From the NCBI GenBank assembly GCA_958295955.1, contig OY282420.1, positions 2,680,435 to 2,744,434 of the forward strand: 64,000 nt of DNA, read 5' to 3'. The position numbers were made by a program, and so were the translations under genes. The notes under the pieces are model-generated. The model saw only the letters and a program-made list of their open reading frames with translations. It searched no databases and was not told the origin of the DNA. This DNA is from an uncultured Bryobacterales bacterium. Lineage in GTDB: Bacteria > Acidobacteriota > Terriglobia > Bryobacterales > UBA6623. Shown one piece after another: positions 54,550-57,798 of this stretch; positions within the stretch are counted from its first letter, which is position 1; each line of letters begins with the position of its first letter.

Positions 54550-56256
54550 TCACTGCTTGACGATAGCGGCGAACCAGACGCCGCGGGCCTCTCCGTCGAT
54601 CACCAGCCGCGCTTCGAACAATCCATCTCCCGGCGCCAGCTTCACTCCCTCGAACTTGACTTGCGAGGAACCCGCCGCCACCGGCGCGGCGGCGTCGAAC
54701 CCGCCGAAAGCGATCTCCCCCCGGCCTGCTTTCTCCGCTGGTTCGGCGAACGTAAGCGTGATGTCGTACGGCCCCGCGGACTCGCAATGCACCTCCCATG
54801 CGCCGATGACCTTGTCCTTGCGGCCCCAGCCGTCGGCAGTCTTCATGCGCCAATCCTGCCGCGTCAGCGTGACGGCCGGCTGTTGCTCGCTGCCGATCGA
54901 AAATCTGACGGCGCGGTAGCCCCCCGGCGGGGCGACGGCGGCGAACCAAGCCTCGTAGCCGGCTTTCATGCGCGCGGCGATATCGGGCTTTTCACCGGCG
55001 AGATTGTTTTCCTCCCCCGGGTCGGCGAGCAAATCGTAGAGTTCCATCGCGGCGTCCGGGGGCGGGGGGGCGGAGAAGCTCAGCGGCTGCGTCAGCTTGT
55101 AGCGCTGAGTCACCGCGGCGAAAGCCCGATAGATCTGCGGCTCGTCGCCGCGGTGGGCCTGCACGTAGTAAGTGCGCTCCGGCTCGGCGGCGGCCTTGCC
55201 CTCGAGTTGCGGCATGATGTCGATGCCGTCGAAGCGCAGGCCGGCGGGCGCGGCGATTCCTGCCGCGGCCAGCAGCGTAGGCGCGATGTCGATATGCGCC
55301 GCGAGGCTGTCCACCTTGCGGGGCGCCAAGCGGGCGGGCCAACGGAAGAAGAACGGCGCGCGGATGCCGTTTTCGTAAACGCTTCCCTTCTGCGCCCGCA
55401 GCCCCGCATGGTACAGCCGCGTCGTCGGGCCGTTGTCGGTCATGAAGATGAAGATCGTGTTTGCGGCCTGCCCCGTGCGCTCCAGATGCGCGAGCAGCTT
55501 GCCGGCGTTGTCGTCGATGTTCTCGATCATCCCGTAGATGCGCGCGTCCTTGTCGCTCAAGCCTTGCGCGGCGTAGGGCTCGCGGTAGGAATCCGGCGTC
55601 AGATACGGAGAGTGCGGCGCATTGGTCGGAATATAGGCAAAGAACGGCTGCCCGCCTGCGCCGCCGATCCAGCGGATCGCCTCGTCGAAATACACGTCGG
55701 TGCAGTAGCCCGCGTACTGCTTCTGCTCGCCGTTGTGGAACAGGATCGGGTCGAAGTAGTCCGAGCCGGGCGGATCGGACGGCTGCCCGATGCCGCCGCC
55801 CTTATGCACCACGGATTCCTGAAAGCCTTGGTCAACCGCCCGCTGCGGATAGTTGTCGCCGAGGTGCCACTTGCCGAAAATGCCCGTCCGGTAACCGGCT
55901 GCGCCCAGCATTTCGGCGATGGTCGTTTCGCCCGGCTCCATCATCGCCCGTCCCAGATAGGTATCGACGACGCCGGTGCGGTAGTTGTAGCGTCCCGTCA
56001 TCAACGCCGCCCGCGTAGGCGCGCAAACCGGCGACACGTAGAAGCGGGTCATCTCCACGCTCCCGCCGGCCAGCTTGTCGAGGTGCGGCGTGCGCAGAAC
56101 CTCGTCCCCGTGGACGCCGAGCTGTGCCCAGCCTTGATCGTCGGTCATGATCAGGACGATGTTGGGGCGCTCGTCTGCGCTTTCAGAAGGAAGGCCGCCG
56201 CACGATGCGAGCAGGAAGGCGGCAGCGAAAACAGCGGTTGGGTTGCGGCGGCTCAC
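54550..56256 (-). CDS. lipoprotein sulfatase (formylglycine type)
   Basis: Arylsulfatase-superfamily hydrolase of 568 residues from the GTG at 56254-56256. A lipobox LLASC with Cys19 marks a lipoprotein. The metal-binding TDDQGW begins at 38, the formylglycine motif is C78-A-P-T-R82, and GKWHLGDN and TDNGPTTR complete the site. The last ~130 residues form an extra beta-rich domain. The frame is open to 56367, but GTG plus lipobox gives a sensible export start with GGGAG upstream. An unusual structured element precedes it (56304-56459). Needs an anaerobic or FGE-type maturase not seen here. Confidence 0.88.
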   Translation of the reverse strand: MSRRNPTAVFAAAFLLASCGGLPSESADERPNIVLIMTDDQGWAQLGVHGDEVLRTPHLDKLAGGSVEMTRFYVSPVCAPTRAALMTGRYNYRTGVVDTYLGRAMMEPGETTIAEMLGAAGYRTGIFGKWHLGDNYPQRAVDQGFQESVVHKGGGIGQPSDPPGSDYFDPILFHNGEQKQYAGYCTDVYFDEAIRWIGGAGGQPFFAYIPTNAPHSPYLTPDSYREPYAAQGLSDKDARIYGMIENIDDNAGKLLAHLERTGQAANTIFIFMTDNGPTTRLYHAGLRAQKGSVYENGIRAPFFFRWPARLAPRKVDSLAAHIDIAPTLLAAAGIAAPAGLRFDGIDIMPQLEGKAAAEPERTYYVQAHRGDEPQIYRAFAAVTQRYKLTQPLSFSAPPPPDAAMELYDLLADPGEENNLAGEKPDIAARMKAGYEAWFAAVAPPGGYRAVRFSIGSEQQPAVTLTRQDWRMKTADGWGRKDKVIGAWEVHCESAGPYDITLTFAEPAEKAGRGEIAFGGFDAAAPVAAGSSQVKFEGVKLAPGDGLFEARLVIDGEARGVWFAAIVKQ

Positions 56257-56303
56257 GGTCTCCCAGACTGACGGACCGCCCTGTCCGCAGTCAAGCCGGC
56301 CGC

Positions 56304-56459
56304 AAAAAAAGAAAGAGCGGTCACGCGTTCGCCGAAACTCCTGACGGCCGGCGGGCTTTACGCCCAAGCTCGCATGTCCTGCGAGGATTTCGGTTTGCCG
56401 TCAGTCAACGAAGAATCAGTTCGAATCTCCGTTGCGCCTCGGTTTTGCTGCGTGACCGC
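56304..56459 (-). promoter_or_regulatory. nested structured RNA-like element ahead of the sulfatase gene
   Basis: On the minus strand a perfect 10-bp stem (56450-56459 with 56317-56326) closes a domain that holds a perfect 8-bp stem (56397-56404 with 56341-56348). Inside that are two hairpins, CTCGCA-TGTCC-TGCGAG at 56370-56386 and GGGC/GCCC around 56353-56365, and CCGAAA/TTTCGG (56332-56337 with 56388-56393) could form a pseudoknot. A U-rich tract (56304-56316) follows the closing stem directly. It may be a terminator-like riboswitch or a small RNA. No known class was recognised. Confidence 0.5.
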
Positions 56460-56484
56460 CCATTCGCGATCGGTGGTTCTATGG

Positions 56485-57798
56485 TTAACCTCCTTTTGAA
56501 AGCGTTTGCCTCGAAAGGCCAATTCTTTTATACCCCGGGACGGAAAGTTTGTCAAGGTTTTCGCTTGCCAAAAACATTGCTGCGGTCTTTTGCCGCACCT
56601 GTTCGGCGATATCGTGCAACCACGCGGCCGTTTCGGCGGCGCCCGCCGTGCAACTCCGCGTCGCCGCCGCATGATTCCTGCCCGCCGCCCGCGCTTCGCC
56701 GTAGCCGTCGACGAAGGCCCCGGGAGGCTCCGGCGAATCGGGTTTCGCCGACAGCGACTCGGCCATAACCGGCCAGCGCTCGATCAACAGGCGGTGCTCC
56801 GGCAGGCAGGACTTGAGCTTGGCGTCGCCGCCGGCGGCCAATTTCGCCATCGAGCGCGGAAGTTTCTCGACGATTTTTCCCAGACGCCCGATGCGCTCTG
56901 CGCGATGCGCCGCGGCTTGCCCGCGGGCCGCCTCGTAAAACGGCTTTTCATGCTCTTCGGCATAGGGCAGGCGGACGGCTTCGTACCAGCGGTCGAAAGC
57001 CCACAGGTTGCCGATCAGCTTCGCCGTGGTCAGGAACTTGCGTTTCAGCCCGGCATAGACTTCGCGGTCGAACCCCGGTATCTCGGCGTTTCCTGCATTC
57101 TTGAAATAGACAACGTCCGCGCCTACGTCTTTGCGCACGATGGAGCCCGCGGCGGCCACCGTGCCGAAGTCGATATGCACCGGCCCGACGATTCCGCATT
57201 GCCCGCCGACGAACACCGGCGCCGAGCGCAGCAGCAAGCCCCGCGCATCACCGAGCAGACTGCCCCATTTGTCGCCGCGCGGGTCGAAGTTGAAGTGAAC
57301 CGCCCCGGAACCGATTTCCGAGTGGTCGTCGCGCGAGGCGCCCCCGCTCATGAAAAGGTCGCAGAAGTTGATCACCGATCCCGCGACGCAGCCGGCCGTA
57401 AGAATGGTGTTCTTGAAGGCCGCCGAGTGCGCCGCTTCAGCTTCTTCTTCGAGCAGCGTGCCCGGACGCAATTCCGCAAAGCCGCGGACGCGCGCGCCCG
57501 CGAGCAGCGTTGCCCCTTGGTAGCTTCCCGCGCCCAGCGTCACGCCGCGGCCGATCTGGCAGTCTTCGACCAGGGCGTGCCCGGACGCTCCGATCTTCGC
57601 GCCCCGCGCGATGCGCAGAGAACCGCCGGCGAGTGTCGCGCGGCGGATTTCAGAGCCGGCCTCGATCCGGTCGAGGTGTACGTCGGCGCCGACGTACACC
57701 CGCTCGGCGCCCCAGACGTCCACGCCTTTCGCGCGCAGCTTGGCGATGCGCCCGCGGTTGCCGGCCTCGTCGTAGGGCATAGGGTTATAGTTTCGCAT
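56485..57798 (-). CDS. hexapeptide-repeat (left-handed beta-helix) protein
   Basis: The 437-residue protein shows imperfect hexapeptide turns (VYVGADVHLDRIEAG, IARGAKIGASGHALVEDCQI, GRGVTLGAGSYQGATLLAG) and GTVAAAGSIVRKDVGAD, as in the acyltransferase half of GlmU-type proteins. An N-terminal uridylyltransferase domain is absent; the C-terminal ~200 residues are helical and unfamiliar. It may be a sugar acyltransferase or a non-catalytic beta-helix. It is followed on the same strand by the structured element and the sulfatase. Confidence 0.75.
   Translation of the reverse strand: MRNYNPMPYDEAGNRGRIAKLRAKGVDVWGAERVYVGADVHLDRIEAGSEIRRATLAGGSLRIARGAKIGASGHALVEDCQIGRGVTLGAGSYQGATLLAGARVRGFAELRPGTLLEEEAEAAHSAAFKNTILTAGCVAGSVINFCDLFMSGGASRDDHSEIGSGAVHFNFDPRGDKWGSLLGDARGLLLRSAPVFVGGQCGIVGPVHIDFGTVAAAGSIVRKDVGADVVYFKNAGNAEIPGFDREVYAGLKRKFLTTAKLIGNLWAFDRWYEAVRLPYAEEHEKPFYEAARGQAAAHRAERIGRLGKIVEKLPRSMAKLAAGGDAKLKSCLPEHRLLIERWPVMAESLSAKPDSPEPPGAFVDGYGEARAAGRNHAAATRSCTAGAAETAAWLHDIAEQVRQKTAAMFLASENLDKLSVPGYKRIGLSRQTLSKGG

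Follow-up and report, generated by a model that had tools for sequence, protein, structure and literature searches.

The stretch of uncultured Bryobacterales DNA analyzed here (64,000 nucleotides, referred to in full as the window) carries, on its minus strand between a hexapeptide-protein gene and a sulfatase gene, a structured element ending in a U-rich tract. A first-pass annotation likened this element to riboswitches and structured small RNAs of no known class and named a large-loop terminator of the upstream gene as the alternative. The question is whether the element serves one of its two neighbors or is a gene in its own right. Taken together, the evidence below makes it likely that the locus encodes a stand-alone structured non-coding RNA, approximately 217 nt long and previously undescribed.

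Secondary structure of the element

The pairings named in the first-pass annotation are all present on the minus strand. The closing stem, GCGGTCACGC (56459-56450) with GCGTGACCGC (56326-56317), comprises 10 perfect base pairs and can be extended to 12 with one G-U, and the inner stem, CTGACGGC (56404-56397) with GCCGTCAG (56348-56341), comprises 8 perfect base pairs and encloses two hairpins (56385-56369 and 56366-56352). CCGAAA (56393-56388) is complementary to TTTCGG (56337-56332), and the tail TCTTTCTTTTTTT (56316-56304) consists of 13 pyrimidines, 11 of them T. Three further features had escaped notice: a probable transcript start farther upstream, at about 56520, one more hairpin, P3 (56434-56406), and a nested helix, P2, formed by CCGAGGC (56442-56436) and GTTTCGG (56338-56332). 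The TTTCGG arm is common to P2 and the proposed pseudoknot. The resulting domain leads from the closing helix, P1, through P2 into a three-way junction with P3 and P4, the latter bearing P5 and P6. The parts of the predicted RNA gene and its surroundings are as follows.

56527-56555, minus strand: promoter TTGACA-N17-TATAAA of the predicted RNA gene, sole match in window and genome
56304-56520, minus strand: predicted RNA of about 217 nt, both ends inferred; z -4.6; homologue in L154
56508-56519, minus strand: 5' hairpin H1, GCCU-UUCG-AGGC, from the fold; L154 has a longer hairpin there
56488-56496, minus strand: AAAGGAGGU, fully complementary to the canonical 3' end of 16S rRNA; identical in L154
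56472-56493, minus strand: hairpin H2, GGAGGUU with AACCACC, one mismatch, from the fold; GGAGG/CCRCC pairing kept in L154
56451-56496, minus strand: conserved 5' block, continuing into P1; about 71% identity to L154 over 49 columns
56450-56461, minus strand: P1 5' arm GGGCGGUCACGC, pairing with 56326-56315
56315-56326, minus strand: P1 3' arm GCGUGACCGCUC, paired with the 5' arm; exchanges in L154
56436-56442, minus strand: P2 5' arm CCGAGGC, pairing with 56338-56332
56332-56338, minus strand: P2 3' arm GUUUCGG, also the proposed pseudoknot 3' arm; from the fold and the L154 comparison
56406-56434, minus strand: P3 hairpin, z -3.0 alone; L154 also has a hairpin in this position
56341-56404, minus strand: P4 domain, helix CUGACGGC/GCCGUCAG with P5 (56385-56369) and P6 (56366-56352)
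56388-56393, minus strand: proposed pseudoknot 5' arm CCGAAA, complementary to 56337-56332; no counterpart in L154
56304-56316, minus strand: U-rich tract, 13 pyrimidines of which 11 are T, presumed terminator together with P1
56265-56294, minus strand: TTGACT-N18-CAGTCT, the sulfatase promoter, 8 nt ahead of the GTG start codon; arrangement common to 4 orthologues

The fold of the element is well beyond chance. Positions 56290-56470 have a minimum free energy of -79.6 kcal/mol (z -3.5), a value equaled by 0 of 200 shuffles, and the predicted 217-nt transcript reaches -89.5 (z -4.6), again with none of 200 shuffles as good. The inner domain remains far from random without the closing stem or the tail (56332-56442, z -4.5), and the P4 domain alone gives z -3.7. 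Furthermore, the GC-corrected folding energy of the element was the lowest among 3,194 stretches of 156 nt taken from both strands of the window, and nearly all positions in the main helices had pairing probabilities of about 0.9 or higher.

Promoters on either side of the element

A near-perfect promoter, TTGACA-N17-TATAAA (56555-56527), is located 66 nt upstream of the closing stem. Neither the window nor the whole 4.58 Mb genome has another match to this pattern, and 100 shuffled versions of the window gave none. Since the reversed control also has a single genomic match, the argument from the promoter lies in its place directly before the structure and not in uniqueness alone. In 18 genomes of the family, the pattern was matched 30 times, against 3 for the reversed pattern, an approximately 10-fold excess. 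The same pattern stands directly upstream of the predicted RNA gene here and of its homologue, L154, described below. From this promoter, a transcript of about 217 nt is predicted, beginning with H1, followed by H2 with AAAGGAGGU in it, and then by P1.

The promoter falls within the final 23 codons of the hexapeptide ORF. In this tail, which covers the promoter and the start of the RNA, third-position GC is 0.42, whereas the gene body has 0.81, and most proteins homologous to the hexapeptide protein stop before the corresponding part. The ORF as a whole (56485-57798 of the window) overruns the end of most homologues by roughly 20-30 codons.

On the other side, the sulfatase gene has a promoter of its own (56294-56265) that begins downstream of the U tract. 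The arrangement TTGAC-N18-CAGNCT just before the start codon is common to the window sulfatase and four orthologues (L090, L091, L096, L099); it stands 8-10 nt before the start codon, and in four of the five (window 56256-56294 and orthologues) 8 nt before a GTG. Judged from sequence, this is a leaderless promoter. The presence of such a conserved promoter after the U tract places the element outside the predicted sulfatase mRNA, which bears directly on a riboswitch or attenuator in the sulfatase 5' UTR, where an aptamer inside the terminator stem would set sulfatase expression through read-through versus termination. An element that precedes the sulfatase gene in the same orientation and has a terminator-like end would suit such a device, and terminator-embedded aptamers are known (HMP-PP riboswitch, PMC6478431). 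However, not only does the leaderless promoter stand behind the U tract, but the upstream regions of about 20 sulfatase homologues, orthologues included, held no recognizable counterpart of the element, and L154 adjoins different genes. The suggestion that the element is a riboswitch of the sulfatase gene is not supported, and we regard this reading as very improbable. Nor was a counterpart found in the downstream regions of 14 hexapeptide homologues.

A homologue at an unrelated locus

When the promoter served as bait in the 18 family genomes, one homologue emerged, L154 (G007:C180), from another genus and an unrelated locus, behind a promoter of the same type. It is flanked upstream by a polX-like gene and downstream by a YtxH-like one, beyond which the same genome has genes whose translations resemble glutaminyl- and glutamyl-tRNA synthetases. 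The predicted RNA is thus independent of any one neighbor, being flanked by the hexapeptide and sulfatase genes in the window and by the polX- and YtxH-like genes in G007. Downstream of the promoter, L154 reads AGAAAGGAGGTCGATATTATAGAGCCGCCGGTCGAGAGGCGGGCGGCCACG ... CGTGGCCGCCCGTTTT, the window counterpart being AAAAGGAGGTTAACCATAGAACCACCGATCGCGAATGGGCGGTCACG ... CGTGACCGCTCTTT.

The homology of the two loci rests on several lines of evidence, each moderate alone. A global alignment of the sequences downstream of the promoter gave a z-score of 5.85, reached by none of 1,000 shuffles, and L154 ranked first among 26 promoter-downstream stretches, ahead by about 5 standard deviations of the others. 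A covariance model built from the window sequence alone and leaving out the 5' block (R1) scored L154 at 18.2 bits (E 1.7e-5 in 701 bases); because the block is not in the model, this score is independent of the 5'-block resemblance. Local similarity by itself is modest, as 10 of 1,979 random stretches scored as high. The abstract shape of the interior, [[][[][]]], is identical in the two copies, including the branching of P4, although they have little sequence in common there; it was reached by only 14 and 10 of 1,000 shuffles (about 1%), and the interiors had z-scores of -4.0 and -3.5.

In P1 of L154, a U-A pair is exchanged for C-G and a G-U is changed to G-C, and in P2, G-U is replaced by U-G and C-G by U-G, so that one P1 pair and one P2 pair differ at both positions. 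The innermost (end) pair of P1 is broken in L154, one P2 pair is unaligned, and the U tract is shorter (UUUU). Across these two sequences, the predicted secondary structure is conserved with compensatory change, of the kind that the first-pass annotation had asked of a relative (U-A to C-G in P1, G-U to U-G in P2). Two sequences are too few for a family in the Rfam sense.

The same comparison disfavors the pseudoknot proposed between CCGAAA and TTTCGG. This pairing is missing in L154, where the CCGAAA arm has no counterpart, and the 3' arm forms the nested P2 helix, which varies compatibly. In the window, freeing the arms would cost 7 kcal/mol of nested pairing, against approximately -5 to -7 for the pseudoknot helix.

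The element might instead end transcription of the hexapeptide gene, as an intrinsic terminator with a large loop that folds by chance or holds unrelated spacer. In favor of this, the element begins a short way behind the stop codon of the hexapeptide gene, and its 12-bp stem runs into a U tract. The enclosed core is far from random (z -4.5), however, the 5' block, P2 and the branching are kept in a homologue at another locus, and a consensus promoter directly precedes the structure. We consider this explanation unlikely. The part of it that stands is that the closing stem with its U tract is a probable terminator, yet of the RNA's own transcript and not of the upstream gene's.

Two observations on other loci came from the same promoter pattern. 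In one genus (g5; L132, L133, L134, L137, L142 and L155), a consensus promoter recurs with an AT-rich, partly symmetric spacer, TTGACATATAATCTATAAATAGATATAAT, which looks like an operator; in several genomes, a conserved protein (MSL..EPSFRLIAPFLRPVMGLLDD) is encoded 127-168 nt downstream of this promoter. At L131 (G010:C20, after 4066), behind a consensus promoter, come about 200 nt that hold no convincing ORF, and a TTTTTA run; this may be a further non-coding RNA.

Relation to known RNA classes and possible function

None of the 4,227 families of Rfam 15 matched the window or L154 at the gathering threshold, and matches with E up to 10 were unrelated noise. ARAGORN found no tRNA or tmRNA gene in the window. 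DNA similarity searches of the own genome, 100 relatives and plasmids yielded only short, chance-level matches, and the best R1 matches in the family, order and class were ordinary terminators or fragments. Run with default filters, R1 passed over L154 in the genome that carries it; the promoter, used as bait, found what the single-sequence model had missed. Models of this type can work: in a positive control, a model made from one 6S RNA alone picked up all 14 of the remaining 6S loci in the sister family, at scores of 42-93 bits. A model from the window and L154 together (R3), run over about 2.2 Mb, mostly of a second genome of the genus to which L154 belongs (G009), singled out the known copies (203 and 224 bits), everything else being noise at about 11 bits or less; no third copy was found in roughly a third of G009 (well over 1 Mb). 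In viral contigs, a pattern search returned a single match, by chance, inside a phage protein gene. We recognized no precedent in the literature, which is weak evidence.

Several specific identities were considered and rejected. The c-di-GMP-I (GEMM) riboswitch, suggested by GGCAAACC...GGCGTAAAGCC, had no Rfam match; ORFs of 104, 187 and 64 amino acids had no Pfam match; and for a leader peptide starting from AUA or AUU after the Shine-Dalgarno-like motif, neither start codon nor spacing is kept in L154.

6S RNA deserves separate mention. Rfam detected it in 15 of 21 searched genomes of the sister family (f3), which belongs to the same order, and neither Rfam nor a model from an f3 6S RNA matched any of the 18 genomes of the family studied here (f1), in which 6S is either lost or strongly diverged. 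The RNA could accordingly be imagined as a highly diverged 6S or a functional substitute for it, which its length and strong promoter would suit. Against this, neither copy matched 6S at E up to 10. 6S RNA is a single long hairpin with a central bubble, from which the two-level branching seen here differs. We hold this reading to be remote.

The description of the element as a structured small RNA of no known class is supported by its own promoter, terminator-like end, lack of an Rfam match and homologue with compensatory changes. For such a stand-alone RNA, we infer that transcription would start near 56520 and that synthesis of the P1 3' arm would let P1 close the domain and, with the U tract, end transcription. 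One helix would thereby both seal the RNA and terminate it, and the product would act in trans as a stable RNA.

Its role can be addressed only tentatively. The best conserved part contains AAAGGAGGU, a 9-nt perfect complement of the 16S rRNA 3' end that sits within hairpin H2, held against CCRCC, with no start codon at a usable distance; for these reasons a ribosome-directed role is suggested, and docking on the 30S subunit would fit. We give this step, which depends on one 9-nt motif, a small chance of being correct. A smaller one still attaches to the fuller proposal of a new class of stable RNA in this Bryobacterales family that would work on the ribosome, the hairpin opening to capture or release 30S subunits. 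In a variant of that proposal, the RNA would stand in for 6S, which cannot be found in the family. If the anti-Shine-Dalgarno complement is functional, the ribosome itself would be the target of this small RNA.

The locus represents a candidate RNA class absent from Rfam 15, from a poorly studied and mostly uncultured bacterial family. Two sequences, a common architecture and a promoter provide handles for finding more members, which may be recognized by TTGACA...TATAAW followed within about 70 nt by AAAGGAGGT, together with a closing stem.

Among known systems, the predicted RNA is like 6S RNA (RF00013) in its similar length, closing stem and stand-alone gene, and unlike it in the branched interior, [[][[][]]], and in matching no 6S model. 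Acido-1 (RF01686) and Acido-Lenti-1 (RF01687), acidobacterial structured RNAs listed as neither cis-regulatory nor riboswitches (PMC2864571), are likewise stand-alone RNA candidates of acidobacteria, although neither family matches either copy in Rfam scans with E up to 10. The HMP-PP (thiS motif) riboswitch, with its aptamer embedded in a terminator (PMC6478431), offers a parallel for a structured element enclosed by a terminator stem. That element is small and regulates the downstream gene, whereas here the stem encloses a domain of about 120 nt and the promoter of the downstream gene lies after the U tract.
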